The notes under the pieces are model-generated. The model was not told the DNA's origin. It saw nothing but the letters and a program-made list of their open reading frames with translations, and searched no databases. A program made the position numbers and the translations under genes. Positions 1 through 8,238 of a stretch of 26,283 nt of DNA are shown in pieces. Source of the stretch: a virus; the IMG/VR virus record IMGVR_UViG_3300030101_003375, positions 1 to 26,283 of that record; one strand, given 5' to 3'. How positions within the stretch are numbered: position 1 is the first letter of the stretch; each line of letters starts with the position of its first letter.

Positions 1-233
1 GTCACCGTCAAACGCAAAATAAAAAAATGACCCCCCCTATACCTGCGTTTTTAGCCTGTTATGGCGGTTTTTGGACATCGAACCTTCGTTTAAAGCTCGT
101 AAACGGGGTTTTACGCATTTCCCAGTTTTTTGGAGCGTACCAGATTTCGTAATTTTTTTCGGTCAGCTGTTGAGCTGGCCCCCAAGCTGGCCGATACAGA
201 AGATGGCACTAATGCCAACAAAAGGAAAAGCTT
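1..233. other. Left non-coding region with hairpins ahead of the lysozyme-like gene
   Basis: No convincing gene is seen here. The stretch is rich in T and A runs. It holds an inverted repeat AAACGCA (10-16)/TGCGTTT (44-50), a hairpin CGTAAA (98-103)/TTTACG (110-115), and an imperfect palindrome GGTCAGCT (161-168)/AGCTGGCC (173-180). A short stem GGCA (205-208)/TGCC (213-216) lies just before the ribosome binding site AAAAGGAA of the gene starting at 234. That last arrangement, a small GC stem followed by AAAAGGAA, recurs before the next two plus-strand genes. A weak promoter could be TTGAGC (171-176) with GATACA 17 bases later, but the match is poor. The region is probably the control region of the rightward arm. 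Confidence 0.45.
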
Positions 234-719
234 ATGCGTATCTCCAAGTCTTTTTTTACTGCAGCTCTCGCACTCTTTACCACTCCAGCTTTCGCAGACC
301 CACCAAGCTACATGGACCCGCTGCTAGTAGCGATATGGGAAGTAGAAAGCTCTAGGAATCCTGGCGGTGTTCCCTTCTATGCGGACTCTGGTAAGACAGC
401 TGGTCCCCTTTGTATATCTGCTGCTTATTTCGCAGACAGCAGGAAGCCTGGTAGATGGCCAGAGTCTGTATTTGATCTAGAATACTCCTGCCAAGTCTTC
501 CGGGCCTATATGGCCCGCTGGGGCTCTCCACAGAGAATCCAAGCCCAAGCCCCCGGTATGTCCCGCGAAGAAGCTTGGAGCCGTCTACACAATGGCGGAC
601 CCCAAGCTTTAAAAGCCAAGCCTGGGACCAAGAAAAGACAGAATCTGGACCGTTACTGGGGCAAGGTAAAAAAAATCTTAAAAAGATTAGAACAAACGTC
701 CCCCAGCCGGGACATTTAA
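234..719 (+). CDS. Secreted lysozyme/transglycosylase-like protein (probable endolysin)
   Basis: This 161-aa protein probably cleaves peptidoglycan at lysis. Residues 1-21 look like a Sec signal peptide: basic start, hydrophobic AALALFTTPAFA, then a signal peptidase-type site AFA|DP. The mature part has a lysozyme-like pattern: IWEVESSRN with Glu38 in the position of the catalytic Glu of the 'ESGgN' motif, then AGPLCIS (compare GPLQI in goose-type lysozyme and SLT families), and RLHNGGPQA near residue 120. The C-terminus is basic (KVKKILKRLE). A signal peptide would let it reach the periplasm without a holin. The ATG at 234 follows AAAAGGAA at good spacing. It is the first gene of the rightward arm. 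The family assignment rests on short motifs; an inactive lysozyme-fold virion protein is the alternative. Confidence 0.7.
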   Translation: MRISKSFFTAALALFTTPAFADPPSYMDPLLVAIWEVESSRNPGGVPFYADSGKTAGPLCISAAYFADSRKPGRWPESVFDLEYSCQVFRAYMARWGSPQRIQAQAPGMSREEAWSRLHNGGPQALKAKPGTKKRQNLDRYWGKVKKILKRLEQTSPSRDI

Positions 720-758
720 TATAAGCTGTCGTTGGCGGAATGAACCGCCCAAAAGGAA
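687..758 (+). repeat. Duplicated leader, copy 1 (operator/hairpin plus RBS)
   Basis: This 72-bp element sits just upstream of the gene at 767 and is matched by a second copy at 1205-1276; I count 64 of 72 identical positions. It contains a perfect inverted repeat GTCCC (698-702)/GGGAC (709-713). A second stem follows, GGCGG (734-738)/CCGCC (745-749), and then directly the ribosome binding site AAAAGGAA (751-758). The TATAAG at 720-725 could be a -10 box. It could act as a promoter with an operator, or as an RNA element controlling translation. Confidence 0.75.
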
Positions 759-766
759 TCTAGTAA

Positions 767-1132
767 ATGACCAACCCAGAACAAAGAGAACAAATCCACC
801 AAGAAGCTGTAGAAGCTTTTAAGGAAATGCTGTCCAGCCCAGTAGCCGCCAGAGCTCTTAGCCAACTCGAAGCCAAGCCAGAGTCCAAGCCAAAGCCCAA
901 GCCCTACGAATACATGGACCAAGAGTACACGAAGCCCCAGTTTGGAGTTAAAGAGCTTCGTAACCGGATCAACTCTTTTAAAGCAGACATAACCCAGCTG
1001 CAGAAGTCCAACTGGCGAATCGGAGACCGGGACCACGATTCCCACAAAGAACAATTTCGATTCTGTCTCCTAGTGGACGAACTGATTGCCGACCTAGCGA
1101 ATATCCGCCATTCAGTCTGCGAAGGGGACTGA
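767..1132 (+). CDS. Hypothetical phage protein, Lys/Pro-rich linker
   Basis: I do not recognise this 121-aa protein. Residues 1-35 look helical and hydrophilic, followed by a linker of repeated Lys-Pro pairs (about 36-46), then a second helical charged part (about 60-115) with no membrane segment or signal peptide. The ATG at 767 is preceded by AAAAGGAA at 751-758 at the end of the duplicated leader. A strong terminator follows the stop codon within ten bases, so the gene ends its transcription unit. Sharing its leader with the gene at 1285 suggests the two are expressed together, perhaps as early anti-host genes. That role is inference only. Confidence 0.7.
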   Translation: MTNPEQREQIHQEAVEAFKEMLSSPVAARALSQLEAKPESKPKPKPYEYMDQEYTKPQFGVKELRNRINSFKADITQLQKSNWRIGDRDHDSHKEQFRFCLLVDELIADLANIRHSVCEGD

Positions 1133-1141
1133 TTGGCCCCA

Positions 1142-1166
1142 GGGGGGGGCTTCGGCCCCCCTTTTT
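1142..1166 (+). terminator. Rho-independent terminator with UUCG loop
   Basis: A G-run ending in C (1142-1150) is followed by the tetraloop TTCG (1151-1154) and GCCCCCC (1155-1161), then TTTTT (1162-1166). The C(UUCG)G loop on a GC-only stem with a T-tract is a textbook intrinsic terminator for rightward transcription. It lies directly after the stop of the gene at 767-1132. Confidence 0.92.
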
Positions 1167-1204
1167 GGCCCAAGATCGCGGGTTCAAAGAAAAAGTAAAA
1201 AAAC

Positions 1205-1276
1205 TTAGAACAAACGTCCCACATCCGGGACATTTCGACTAAGCTGTCCCTGGCGGAATGAACCGCCCAAAAGGAA
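1205..1276 (+). repeat. Duplicated leader, copy 2 (operator/hairpin plus RBS)
   Basis: Second copy of the element at 687-758, same length, eight mismatches by eye. Both stems are conserved: GTCCC (1216-1220)/GGGAC (1227-1231) and GGCGG (1252-1256)/CCGCC (1263-1267), again followed by AAAAGGAA (1269-1276). Differences fall in loops and in the stretch between the stems (1235-1250). Because it follows a strong terminator, it must either contain a promoter or receive read-through. Confidence 0.78.
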
Positions 1277-1284
1277 ACCAACCA

Positions 1285-1554
1285 ATGGCCAACTCAACCA
1301 ACCAACTCGAACCAGTCCAAATCGTCGCCCAATTCGTCGCAGGCCAAACCTACTCTATGGCCTGGAACGACGACAGCGACACTCGTACCAATCACCTGGT
1401 AATCCGTCGTACTGCTAAGTCCATCTGGATTAACAAAGGTGGAGAAGTCGTACGTAGAGCTGTGAAAGTCTACGGTGGTACGGAGTATGTCTGGCACGGC
1501 AACTACTCCCAGTCCCCTTGGCTTCGTGCTGCTGATCGGGTCGAAACCGACTAA
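1285..1554 (+). CDS. Hypothetical small phage protein
   Basis: I do not recognise this 89-aa protein. It has a neutral N-terminus, then alternating hydrophobic and charged residues suggesting beta strands (LVIRRTAKSIWI, VVRRAVKVYGG, TEYVWHGNY), and no membrane segment or signal peptide. An in-frame ATG exists at 1258, but it lies in the loop of the leader hairpin and upstream of the ribosome binding site AAAAGGAA (1269-1276), so 1285 is the likely start. It is the last gene of the rightward arm and ends about 40 bases before a strong stem-loop. A DNA- or RNA-binding role is possible but not shown. Confidence 0.72.
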   Translation: MANSTNQLEPVQIVAQFVAGQTYSMAWNDDSDTRTNHLVIRRTAKSIWINKGGEVVRRAVKVYGGTEYVWHGNYSQSPWLRAADRVETD

Positions 1555-1592
1555 GCTAGACTAACCTTCCTGCTTCTCTTCTCGTCTCCCTA

Positions 1593-1630
1593 AACCCCCT
1601 TAGCAATCCACCCGCTAAGGGGGTTATCTT
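1593..1630. terminator. Terminator between converging arms
   Basis: A perfect 12-bp stem, AACCCCCTTAGC (1593-1604) with GCTAAGGGGGTT (1614-1625), encloses a 9-base loop and is followed by ATCTTTT on the plus strand. It ends rightward transcription after 1554 and lies exactly where the leftward gene at 1631 stops. It may slow leftward transcription too, although the minus-strand side lacks a good T-run. Confidence 0.85.
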
Positions 1631-2653
1631 TTAGCTACAAGCTCCCCAAGAAGACAGTACGACCAGGACAGCTTCTAAGCCATTGTTCGTCTGGGGGTGA
1701 TACTGAAAGCCTGCATAGTCGCCTAGGACCTTTAGCAAATCTTCGAAGCCTACCCGTCCGTTTTCGTCCAGGTCCGCTGGGCAGATATTGTCTAGCTCGT
1801 AACTAACTTGGTAGGGGGAAGGGTCGCAAGGGTAGCTATTTCCACAGGCAAAACGAATTACGCCAGAGCTGGCGAAAAGGTCTGGACCTGTAAACCTGGC
1901 GATATGGAAAGACCCAGGAAACTTGGAGCTAGACCAGTCTTGTAAATGGCCACGCCAAATAATCAAGTCCGCGTAATCGTTTTGGCTTGGCGAGCTACAG
2001 CAGACCTGGCTTGGAACCTGTCCAACTGGGTAGGGGTCCCAAGCTTTATAAGTGTTCGATTCGATCAAGTCTTTGTGCTGGGCTTGGACCTGGGGGTAAA
2101 TCATCTGCTGATTCTGTCCGTACTTCCGCCCAGGTTCCCCGGACAGGATCCAAGAATCACACCAGAAGTATTCCAGTCCAATCAAGTCGTAAGTATTGGG
2201 ACAGCAGGACCCAGCTTGTACTTGCCAGTTAACTGGAGTGTAGTTTTGGCCAAGGTACATCCACCTTTGGTACGGGTTACTTTGGATACAGTCCCAGTAA
2301 GCACCAGGACTGGGGCATTTAATACCCGTATCCTGCTCCCAGTATTCTTGGCATTCTGTACAGTTTTCTAGAAATGGGTAAGTAGCGTCTCGGCGGTTCT
2401 TAAATACTTCGCCTTCAATAACCCAGGAAAAAGACCTAGCTGGAGATTCGTTACCCCTGGTGGCCCCAATCATGTACGGCGGTCTGGGTCGTCCGCTTGG
2501 CGGTGTAAACTCTGGATCTAACCCAGTCTGTATGTAAACGTCAAACGTCCGGCCAAAGGGGGTAAGCCTTCCCAGGTCGTCTACCCACATAGCCACAGAG
2601 TTTGGGTCTGCTGGTGGACCAGAAAAAGCCAAAGCCAAAGCAGTTAAGAACAT
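1631..2653 (-). CDS. Secreted Cys-rich protein with planctomycete-type dockerin/EF-hand C-terminus
   Basis: This 340-aa protein begins with a short hydrophobic segment (MFLTALALAFSGPPA), a probable signal peptide. The central part is rich in aromatic residues and Cys (ENCTECQEYW, GSCCPNTYD, QVCCSSPS), suggesting a disulfide-bonded exported domain. The C-terminus has CPADLDENGRVGFEDLLKVL, with Asp-x-Asp-x-Asn-Gly-x-Val and a terminal Asp as in an EF-hand/dockerin calcium loop, then a second half ending SSWGACS. This closely follows the CPADL-(D/N)-G-V-DLL-VL-WG-C tails common on planctomycete secreted proteins. The ATG at 2653 has GGGAG nine bases upstream. It is the last leftward gene. It could be a surface, virion-decorating or superinfection protein; the function is unknown. 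Confidence 0.75.
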   Translation of the reverse strand: MFLTALALAFSGPPADPNSVAMWVDDLGRLTPFGRTFDVYIQTGLDPEFTPPSGRPRPPYMIGATRGNESPARSFSWVIEGEVFKNRRDATYPFLENCTECQEYWEQDTGIKCPSPGAYWDCIQSNPYQRWMYLGQNYTPVNWQVQAGSCCPNTYDLIGLEYFWCDSWILSGEPGRKYGQNQQMIYPQVQAQHKDLIESNTYKAWDPYPVGQVPSQVCCSSPSQNDYADLIIWRGHLQDWSSSKFPGSFHIARFTGPDLFASSGVIRFACGNSYPCDPSPYQVSYELDNICPADLDENGRVGFEDLLKVLGDYAGFQYHPQTNNGLEAVLVVLSSWGACS

Positions 2654-3117
2654 CGTTTACGACTCCCAAAACCAAAAGCTAAAAACATCAAAGCCAGCCC
2701 GCTGGACTGGGGAACAAATGAGTAAGTTTCACCAGACCAAATGTCCTGGTCTTGGGACGAATTAGGAAAGAAGCTTTTACCAAGCTCTGGAGTTAAAGCT
2801 GGCAAGTATGGAAAAAGGGGAAGCTCTATAAGAGAGCTACCAGAACTGTTCCAGCTGCGAGCTTCCTGGTCTGGAGCTGTCACAGCTGCCAGCTCTGTAT
2901 CTGGTCCAAGCTGGCTAGCTTCGCTTGTAAATGCGTCCAAGCTAGACGAAAGACCTAGAGCTAGGTCCAAAGATTCTTTACCCAGAAGCGTAGCCATAAC
3001 TGTAAGAGCTAGGGTAAGCCGTTGGTTCTTCTTGGACATTTCCCTACATTTAGACTCGCAGTCCGAAAGCTGTCTGGCTTCCTGGGCTTGTCTTTTTTCG
3101 CAAGCTGGACAGCTCAA
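2644..3117 (-). CDS. Membrane-associated protein with Cys-rich N-terminus and PEP-CTERM-like tail
   Basis: Unrecognised protein of about 157 aa. The N-terminus has CPAC and later DCESKC, a possible metal-binding or disulfide cluster. A moderately hydrophobic helix follows (LTLALTVMATLLG), then a long Ser/Leu-rich region. The C-terminus reads VPQSSGLALMFLAFGFGSRK: a Val-Pro, a hydrophobic stretch and a basic end. This resembles PEP-CTERM sorting signals (VPEP, transmembrane, RRR), which are frequent in planctomycetes, although the second Pro is missing. A longer TTG start exists at 3132. I prefer TTG at 3117, overlapping the upstream stop as TTGA with GGGAG eight bases before. Its 3' end overlaps the next gene by ten bases. 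Confidence 0.6.
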   Translation of the reverse strand: MSCPACEKRQAQEARQLSDCESKCREMSKKNQRLTLALTVMATLLGKESLDLALGLSSSLDAFTSEASQLGPDTELAAVTAPDQEARSWNSSGSSLIELPLFPYLPALTPELGKSFFPNSSQDQDIWSGETYSFVPQSSGLALMFLAFGFGSRKRCS

Positions 3118-3476
3118 CCCCTGGTCTCCCAAGGATTATGCCTTACAACTGTGCTACCTAAGCTAGCTCTTTCGATTCCTGGAACTGGTCTAGATTCCGC
3201 CAGGGTCTTAGCCTGGTGGCATGAAATACAGAGTCCCTGGAGATTCGTATAGCTATCGTCCCCCCCACGGGACAGGGGTACTATATGGTCTACCTGTTGC
3301 GAAGCTGCAGCGTTACAAGCTTTACAAACTGGGTCTCTGGCCAGGATCTGGGCTCTAAGCTTCATCCAACGCCGACCACGGTTAGCCCTGGTACTTCTGT
3401 CTTTCCTGGGTTCTGGTCCCCGGTCTCTTTGCCCCAGGGGAACCAGCCTACCGTCCCCAGTAACTCGCTTAATCAT
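3114..3476 (-). CDS. HNH endonuclease
   Basis: A 120-aa HNH nuclease. The core shows CKAC (about residues 51-54), VDHIVPLSRGGDDSYTNLQG with the catalytic His, and CISCHQAKT with the second CxxC zinc pair and final His. A basic N-terminal region (RKDRSTRANRGRRW) precedes it. Phages with HK97-type large terminases and cohesive ends often encode such a protein next to the terminase, where it assists packaging cuts. Here it lies some 21 kb away on a linear map, but only about 6 kb from the terminase if the molecule is circular. The ATG at 3476 overlaps the stop of the upstream 31-codon gene as ATGA. A homing-type HNH is the alternative. Confidence 0.88.
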   Translation of the reverse strand: MIKRVTGDGRLVPLGQRDRGPEPRKDRSTRANRGRRWMKLRAQILARDPVCKACNAAASQQVDHIVPLSRGGDDSYTNLQGLCISCHQAKTLAESRPVPGIERASLGSTVVRHNPWETRG

Positions 3477-5112: not shown

Positions 5113-5301
5113 CTAGATGTCTTCTCCTTCGTCTTCTTCTTCTGGTTCGTCGTTATCAATAATCGACCATTCAGACAGACATAACTCGAAAGCTACAAGT
5201 ATTAAAGCACCTAGAAGCTCGGCGGTAGATATGTTCCACTCCATCCGCCAACGCTGGACGACAGACCTAAGCTCTCTAGCTAGTTTCTCTGGTGCGTCCA
5301 T
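5113..5301 (-). CDS. Small acidic protein
   Basis: An unrecognised 62-aa protein. The N-terminal half is a basic amphipathic helix (EKLARELRSVVQRWRMEW), then a hydrophobic helix (TAELLGALILVAFELCL), and the last fifteen residues are almost all acidic (NDEPEEEDEGEDI). The acidic tail could mimic DNA or bind a basic partner. It overlaps the upstream HTH gene by 26 bases and abuts the zinc-ribbon gene. The ATG at 5301 has GGTAAG nearby as a weak ribosome binding site. Its tight fit in the operon supports it being real. Confidence 0.6.
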   Translation of the reverse strand: MDAPEKLARELRSVVQRWRMEWNISTAELLGALILVAFELCLSEWSIIDNDEPEEEDEGEDI

Positions 5302-5626
5302 ACTTACCGTTTCGGTTCTTGGCCACCAGCCTTTTAGCTGCAGCTTCGCGGAATACTTCTACCTGGGTCTCTTCTGGGAAACTCTGGAAAGCTAGCCATA
5401 ACCTAGTGGTCGTATGTCTATCAAAACCAAACTCTAAAGCTATGTCTGGAATCGAATGCCCAAGAGAAACCAAGCCACCTACCAGCTTTTTGGCATTCAT
5501 TGGTAAACGACAGTCTGGGCTTAGCTCTCTACGTTTCCAGGTGGTAAGCGTACGCTTTACGCCACCAGTCCGAAACTCTTCTGCTTCTAGGTGGAGCTTA
5601 AGTCTTTTTTCGTGGGTCATGCTCAT
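5276..5626 (-). CDS. Helix-turn-helix DNA-binding protein
   Basis: A 116-aa basic protein. Residues about 48-80 (LVGGLVSLGHSIPDIALEFG then FDRHTTTRLWLAF) fit a helix-turn-helix: a first helix, 'G-x-s-i-p-d-I-A' like the second helix of homeodomain-like/HTH domains, and a recognition helix with DRHTTTRLW. The flanks are Lys/Arg-rich. It begins with TAATG overlap on the replication protein gene. It could regulate the phage genes, bind a replication origin, or be a minor terminase-like factor. ATG at 5626 is used; a second ATG two codons later is possible. Confidence 0.7.
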   Translation of the reverse strand: MSMTHEKRLKLHLEAEEFRTGGVKRTLTTWKRRELSPDCRLPMNAKKLVGGLVSLGHSIPDIALEFGFDRHTTTRLWLAFQSFPEETQVEVFREAAAKRLVAKNRNGKYGRTRETS

Positions 5627-7355: not shown

Positions 7356-8238
7356 CGGTGCTTTCTGCGAAGAACGGACGGACCTTTTCGTAACCTGTTG
7401 GCCAGTTACCCTTCTGCTCCCAAATACGGGACAGCTCCTGGATATGGTGTTCATTTTCTAGCTGGATTCTGGACAGCTCCGAGCTTTGGAAATTCCAGCA
7501 TCCGACCTTATACGGTGGGTGTTTTTCGACAGCTACCAACAGAACTGGGATACCACAGCCACAGGAGTTAGGCACTGTCTTAGAAAACAAATCCCGGTAG
7601 AAAGCCAGCTGCTCTGGGTATCCAAACTTAAGAGCTCTGCTTTTAAAGCTACGCAAGTCTTCCGTAGTTTTTAGGTCTACCAGGATTGTTCCCCCCTGGC
7701 CCCACTCCCCTACCCAATCGACCTTACATTGTCTAGCGAAGGGTTCGTTATCGCACTGGTAACGAAAGACCTTTTCTGGCTGTCCTGTTTCCAGCTGCTT
7801 AGAAGCTACAGGGTTTTCCCTTACAGCTTGGGCCATACCCTGGCACTGTTCCCACTGAGCTTTAGACAAAAGCTGTAGTCCTGGTCTTACTTCGTCCAAG
7901 CTAGCTTTAGCAGCTCTCCAGGCTTTCGTATTCTCTCCGTAGACTTCCCCGGTACGCTTGTTGATGAAGCCAAGCTCTGGGTCTAAGTCTTCGATTACTA
8001 CAAACTCAGACTCGAACTTTTTAGTACCTTCAAGAATCAAAGCGTGAGCTGCGCGGCCTAGCACCAAAGCTGGGCTTTCGGCGTGCTTTACTTCGTATGT
8101 TTTATACTTGGCCTGGTAGTCCCTGGGAGATTGTCTAAAGACCTTCAAAGCAGAAGCTGAGATAGCCCGACCTTCTTTGGCGTGCGCATGGTAAACGCTG
8201 TCTTCTTCTTCTAAAAAGCTACCCGTTGGAATCGTCAT
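7342..8238 (-). CDS. RecE-like PD-(D/E)XK exonuclease (exodeoxyribonuclease VIII family)
   Basis: A 298-aa protein of the RecE/PDDEXK_12 (DUF3799) type. Seen in order: ISASALKVFRQSPRDYQAKY near the start, LGRAAHALILEG with the conserved His, RQCKVDWVGEW with the catalytic Asp, and TILVDLKTTEDLRSF with Asp-x-Lys. GYPEQLAFYRDLF follows, as in RecE and RecB-type nuclease domains. Such enzymes resect duplex 5' ends for single-strand annealing with a RecT-type partner. No RecT gene is seen here, but an SSB-like protein is two genes downstream. ATG at 8238 is chosen over TTG at 8247 because AGAGGG is correctly spaced from the ATG. It overlaps the upstream gene by 20 bases. Confidence 0.85.
   Translation of the reverse strand: MTIPTGSFLEEEDSVYHAHAKEGRAISASALKVFRQSPRDYQAKYKTYEVKHAESPALVLGRAAHALILEGTKKFESEFVVIEDLDPELGFINKRTGEVYGENTKAWRAAKASLDEVRPGLQLLSKAQWEQCQGMAQAVRENPVASKQLETGQPEKVFRYQCDNEPFARQCKVDWVGEWGQGGTILVDLKTTEDLRSFKSRALKFGYPEQLAFYRDLFSKTVPNSCGCGIPVLLVAVEKHPPYKVGCWNFQSSELSRIQLENEHHIQELSRIWEQKGNWPTGYEKVRPFFAESTDGDI

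Follow-up and report, generated by a model that had tools for sequence, protein, structure and literature searches.

The window analyzed here, that is, the entire 26,283-base record, carries the tailed-phage gene set of an uncultured bacterial virus. The genes for the terminase (TerL), portal, S78 prohead protease, HK97-type capsid, and tape measure proteins are on the minus strand, and three genes at the left end, denoted 234, 767, and 1285 by their start positions, are on the plus strand. Searching the viral collection with the terminase detected 63 loci, of which 12 are 78–100% identical, and because the full-length terminase-matched relatives span 25.7–27.8 kb, the window is taken as a near-complete tailed-phage genome of ~26 kb. 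A terminase scan of bacterial genomes did not reveal a host; it returned a single relative at 34%, from a metagenome bin assigned to Proteobacteria.

Gene 234 (234–719) encodes a 161-residue lysozyme-like protein with a predicted destabilase (invertebrate-type lysozyme) fold, which is unusual for a phage lysozyme. The structural model (pLDDT 66) matched leech destabilase in a Foldseek search (E = 2.1e-4), and the match to the Pfam Destabilase family (E = 0.0076) was under the Pfam cut-off. A close-relative search of the viral collection with this protein found none. For the product of gene 767 (767–1132; 121 residues), neither a family nor a relative was found: no close relative was found in the viral collection and none in 20 related records. 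Gene 1285 (1285–1554) encodes an 89-residue protein of unassigned function that is predicted, at low confidence (pLDDT 54), to be all-beta, and this structure was left out of the interpretation. All three plus-strand genes are preceded by AAAGGA. The main minus-strand gene block may rely on SD-independent starts: even when any start in the first 40 codons is allowed, a ribosome site of 5 nt or more was found for only 3 of 33 genes. By a lenient rule, ribosome sites were found in 8–10 of the 30–32 homologues in each of five relatives and before all four gene 234 homologues among them.

Genes 767 and 1285 share a leader. The first-pass annotation described a duplicated 72-nt element (687–758 and 1205–1276); its coordinates were right, and it turned out to be part of a 111-nt direct repeat (668–778 and 1186–1296; 81% identity, E = 3.6e-26) that reaches four codons into each gene. 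Copy 1 consists of an A-rich stretch, stem 1, a presumed promoter, stem 2, the ribosome site, and the first four codons of gene 767; copy 2 stands before gene 1285. Per 20-nt block, the identity of the copies is 15–30% before 668, 55–90% inside the repeat, and at most 35% from 788 on. Because the 767 and 1285 proteins do not align to each other and identity falls past 788, it is the leader, not a gene, that has been copied, which eliminates simple gene duplication.

Stem 1 is a perfect GTCCC-N6-GGGAC in both copies, as annotated (698–713, arms 698–702/709–713; 1216–1231, arms 1216–1220/1227–1231). Stem 2, which is GGCGG-AAUGAA-CCGCC in copy 1 (734–749, arms 734–738/745–749) and likewise perfectly paired in copy 2 (1252–1267, arms 1252–1256/1263–1267), had been placed one or two bases before the ribosome site; the spacing is one base in both copies. 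The ribosome site itself, AAAAGGAA (751–758, ATG at 767; 1269–1276, ATG at 1285), is not rare in the window (5 occurrences versus 2.2 expected). The 72-nt copies differ at 8 positions, and none of these falls in the 20 stem positions or in the ribosome site, as the annotation had noticed; the avoidance of the stems is only suggestive (hypergeometric P = 0.063). Among 5,000 dinucleotide shuffles, a perfect 5-bp GC-rich upstream stem such as stem 1 appeared in 42, a stem whose end is no more than 2 nt away from the ribosome site appeared in 8, and both in none, so that the presence of the stems by chance is unlikely. No Rfam family matched the window over the gathering threshold. Comparison of the leader DNA with the phage collection yielded short chance matches only, and no other genome was found to carry the complete leader; three leader sequences of other contigs used as queries gave no matches or chance matches.

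In copy 1, stem 1 is contained in the last codons of the 234–719 open reading frame. The 8 C-terminal residues of the encoded protein are absent from its four aligned homologues, which would fit an arrival of the cassette at the 3′ end of gene 234. Alignment to relatives points to a candidate −10 element in copy 1, TATAAG (720–725), which is separated from stem 2 by 8 nt and lacks a matching −35; the stretch of copy 2 aligned to it, ACTAAG (1238–1243), is a poor match. No sigma-70 promoter was recognizable in the window copies (best scores, 7/12 in copy 1 and 6/12 in copy 2), and a general promoter scan of positions 1–3000 yielded one promoter-like site versus 2.1 expected; the promoter and transcription start of both copies are accordingly treated here as putative. 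Each of the two genes is followed by a terminator. A strong plus-strand intrinsic terminator (1142–1167; −21.2 kcal/mol, then TTTTT) lies between gene 767 and copy 2, and another (1593–1635; −21.7 kcal/mol) follows gene 1285, between the converging arms.

The resemblance of the gene 234 leader, which the annotation had also pointed out, is borne out: the hairpin TGGCACTAATGCCA (204–217) is followed by AAAAGGAA (220–227), and a candidate promoter, TTGAGC-N17-GATACA (7/12), is located just upstream of the hairpin. The left arm is readable in five full-length relatives and one further contig, L117; gene 234 homologues are present in four of the five and in L117. The exception is L106, a contig that stops within a later gene. 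The leaders of gene 234 and its homologues form an orthologous set that was chosen without regard to hairpins. In all six genomes, a hairpin occupies the same place before the ribosome site, in three sequences: TGGCACTAATGCCA in the window, GGCTTCGAGCC in L103 and L104, and GGGCAACTGCCC in L105, L107, and L117; CCGAT is invariant at the −10 place of all six. In L103 and L104 (genomes G002 and G003), gene 234 and a terminator-like stem are followed directly by the homologue of 1631–2653, and genes 767 and 1285 are absent from between them.

In the related phages, a short hairpin of the GGC-N6-GCC type stands right before the ribosome site of small genes, so that stem 2 is the conserved part of the leader. 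L006 carries three 114-nt direct repeats at its terminase end (73%, 85%, and 100% identical to the reference copy), and L004 contains two 77-nt direct repeats of promoter and hairpin. The order in both is a terminator tail, TTGACA-N17-TATACT, the hairpin TGGC-AAYNAA-GCCA, AAAGGAA, and the start codon. L105, L107, and L117 each have one such leader behind gene 234, with a weaker candidate promoter (TCAACA-N17-GATAAA or similar). We scanned 20 loci, namely, the window and relatives, some overlapping or near-identical, for a promoter (at least 9/12), a hairpin, and a ribosome site in this order. Seven of the 164 starts with a ribosome site were positive, versus none in 10 rounds with shuffled upstream sequence: two in L004, three in L006, and one each in L009 and L011, which are near-identical. 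The window copies, given the required promoter score, are not among the seven. In all seven, the hairpin begins 5–7 nt after the −10 element, and with this spacing behind a near-consensus promoter, the mRNA should begin at the hairpin in L004, L006, L009, and L011.

The covariation with related phages that the annotation proposed to examine supports stem 2; stem 1 was not found in the relatives. In an alignment of ten hairpin leaders (A5), four of the five stem 2 pairs change on both sides, with a covariation score of 0.58 versus 0.11 in shuffles; the rows were picked for having the hairpin, which biases the pairing counts in this direction, and this is thus not an unbiased test. The gene 234 leaders, those at L105 1368 and L107 1182, and the L009/L011 leader were left out of A5. 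Less prone to this bias are the orthologous gene 234 leaders described above and the matches of a covariation model built from the ten leaders (R1). This model matched the L009/L011 leader, outside its training set, with 24.3 bits (E = 6.8e-5); in L105 and L107, it matched the second cassette genes with E = 0.0045, and in the window, the gene 234 leader with 17.7 bits (E = 0.011). Two of the five full-length relatives, G003 and G010, had no match under E = 0.01. A further model match, in L182, was dropped, as inspection by eye revealed no such hairpin.

The hairpin loop is less uniform. An AAUNAA-type loop was found in only 1 of 34 hairpins in a loop-blind scan, and we rejected this loop as a universal signal. 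A scan with the loop fixed, which presets the loop and is hence uninformative about it, yielded 82 stretches, 80 of them among the matches listed; 72 were distinct (with L004 added), and 66 of these had sufficient upstream sequence together with an open reading frame of 35 codons or more; the dissimilar ones numbered 41. A promoter scoring at least 10/12 was present near the hairpin in 7 of the 41 (shuffles: mean 0.2, largest 2), and at 9/12 in 8 of the 41 (shuffles: mean 1.8, largest 7). In L210, L214, L217, L218, L258, L263, and other phage contigs, a palindrome, for example, TAGGTA-TTTT-TACCTA, precedes GGC-AAUNAA-GCC and then AAAGGAAA, and this order of palindrome, hairpin, and ribosome site recurs among them.

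The annotation took the leader to be a dedicated element that switches or co-regulates the rightward arm. A dedicated leader at more than one rightward gene stood up, with stem 2 and the ribosome site recurring in relatives; a switch is not supported because the ribosome site lies outside both stems and none of the relatives was found to carry stem 1. The calculated mean unpaired probability of the ribosome site is 0.77 in copy 1 and 0.43 in copy 2, where a CCU can pair with the AGG of the site. Among 11 leaders folded from the presumed start, the site is mostly open in 8 (mean unpaired, 0.63–0.86) and less open in those of gene 1285 (0.43), gene 234 (0.42), and one L006 copy, L006b (0.16), so sequestration of the ribosome site is not the general design.

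Relative to TATAAG, stem 1 is located where the −35 element would be. It is probably promoter DNA, and its position, taken alone, is best explained by a DNA site for a protein, possibly an operator-like one. The one scan of the collection for GTCCC-N6-GGGAC hit two unrelated stretches; given its absence from the relatives searched, stem 1 was rejected as an operator common to the group. A third perfect occurrence in the window (3258–3273) is best explained by coding, as it corresponds to the VPLSRGGDDS codons of an HNH gene. The link to the HTH protein encoded at 5276–5626, suggested as the binding partner, is weakened because homologues of this protein occur in relatives where stem 1 was not found.

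Cassettes of this type occupy different places within the group, as seen from their positions in L011, L004/L006, and the window. In L011 (7070–7560, minus strand), the capsid gene is separated from the structural gene that follows by a 113-codon gene on the opposite strand; this extra gene, also present in L009, has its own promoter, a hairpin leader, and a terminator behind it. In L013, near 7400–7436, the sequences that flank the L011-type gene abut, that is, the site is empty, and L012 has other sequence at this place. The cassettes are upstream of the terminase gene in L004 and L006 and behind gene 234 in the window.

We consider it likely, with a probability of about 0.6, that these leaders are the start of a single-gene expression cassette akin to PeSLs, SAS, and morons, with stem 2 capping the mRNA and stem 1 acting as DNA. 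The promoter would produce a transcript starting at or a few bases from stem 2, followed by AAAAGGAA and the start codon. At the mRNA 5′ end, stem 2 would protect against 5′-end-dependent decay and, by folding on itself, would keep the ribosome site open irrespective of the gene downstream. Stem 1 would be a palindromic protein site in the promoter DNA, standing in the −35 place, and the terminator would close each one-gene unit. Because the genes behind the cassette are unrelated and its location varies among the relatives in which it recurs, it appears to be a portable start module. Hairpins at the 5′ end stabilize mRNA and can block end-dependent decay in Escherichia coli and Bacillus subtilis, and ompA, papA, and aprE have such 5′-terminal hairpins upstream of the ribosome site, according to the available part of the source (PMC3997798). 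In the relatives, the hairpin is predicted to lie within a few nucleotides of the transcript start at seven starts; a difference from the cases covered there is that here it is a repeated phage module.

The closest known kinds of elements are morons, PeSLs of T4-type phages, and SAS/ESAS of cluster K and EF phages; the literature search, in the portions of the sources it returned, found no description of such a cassette in this phage group. A moron is an extra phage gene with its own promoter and terminator, and the L011/L009 gene, with its promoter, hairpin leader, and terminator and with a site that is empty in a relative, is similar. In the window, terminators are present, whereas genes 767 and 1285 lack a recognizable promoter, and both genes are missing from G002 and G003. 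PeSLs (promoter early stem loops), for which Arbiol 2010 and Comeau 2014 are reportedly the source papers, are said to be a promoter-terminator motif, to go by the title of the latter. In the accessible part of a source on T4-type phages, they are described as a repeated promoter plus stem-loop thought to mediate gene shuffling (PMC4503421). Like PeSLs, the leaders occur in several copies beside unrelated genes, with a promoter in L004/L006 that is not recognizable in the window. Unlike in PeSLs, the promoter here precedes the conserved hairpin, which adjoins the ribosome site; in place of a terminator stem-loop, stem 2 precedes AAAAGGAA and a start codon with no T's, and a separate terminator stands before copy 2. 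Furthermore, the window, with its TerL, portal, S78 protease, and HK97-type capsid in a 26-kb record, is not T4-like. The SAS/ESAS elements of cluster K mycobacteriophages and cluster EF Microbacterium phages, as far as the accessible text goes, are repeated, unusually conserved sequences that occupy the place of the ribosome site in several genes belonging to different families; an inverted repeat lies upstream of some of them (PMC3203893, PMC7302621). The leader of the window and its relatives is likewise repeated at starts of different-family genes, but the cluster K SAS, in the same portions of text, is the 13-bp GGGATAGGAGCCC, to which ESAS adds 17-bp imperfect repeats, whereas here AAAAGGAA stands in a different context.

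A hairpin that touches the ribosome site could also be an RNA operator. A phage protein would then bind stem 2, alone or together with stem 1, and turn translation of the rightward genes down or up in the manner of T4 gp43 and gp32. The AAUNAA loop common to the window and several relatives fits this scheme, and T4 gp43, which uses a hairpin that precedes its ribosome site and has a specific loop, is a precedent, as presented in the accessible part of the source (PMC3014915). The loop is missing, however, from the gene 234 leaders, L011, and the loop-blind set, and we regard such an operator as unlikely. Transcription could instead start in the A-rich stretch near 668–690, with the leader folding as two RNA hairpins; the conserved block starts at TTAGAACAAACG, the folding energy of the two leaders is low (z = −2.05 and −2.59), and a palindrome directly precedes the hairpin in some phage leaders found by pattern. 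This appears improbable, given that the relatives with clear promoters would start transcription at the hairpin and that stem 1 of copy 1 lies within the 234–719 open reading frame.

There is also only a slim chance that stem 1 serves to terminate or attenuate, as a short element, read-through from the preceding gene, making the repeat a terminator-promoter hinge like the PeSLs of T4: positions 698–713 scored as terminator-like in the scan, but the stem has only five pairs, its T tract is broken, copy 2 is unlisted in the same scan, and the strong terminator at 1142–1167 already precedes copy 2. If the repeat were just ordinary intergenic sequence, recently duplicated and without a particular function, this would agree with the suggestive-only substitution pattern (P = 0.063) and with the failure to find the entire leader in any other genome; it is very improbable, however, considering the same architecture in relatives, the intact stems in both copies, and the unrelated genes.

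Going beyond the single-gene cassette, we would tentatively, and with considerable doubt, extend it to a lineage of small tailed phages, perhaps to many unrelated phages, that would share a portable 5′-cap hairpin plus ribosome site, with a phage regulator here binding GTCCC-N6-GGGAC in place of the −35 element. With such a module, any captured gene, whichever it is, would be expressible upon arrival. The leaders described here give one-at-a-time uptake and expression of accessory genes by small phages a concrete, testable structure; they flag hairpins of this kind as markers of accessory genes in uncultured viruses and offer compact natural gene-start parts that lend themselves to functional tests in a laboratory host.

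Several additional features of the genome were noted. The minus-strand gene at 1631–2653 encodes a conserved protein found at no fewer than 80 viral loci, many on contigs of other sizes, with an end that we take to be dockerin-like. The C-terminus of the adjacent minus-strand product (2644–3132) resembles a PEP-CTERM sorting signal, a hint of the host cell surface; this protein had no NCBIfam match. Contig ends coincide at positions 1 and 26283 of the window, the starts of L008 and L012, and L105 1–220; L105 spans the end junction, with about ten extra bases separating the ends, as expected with cohesive ends.
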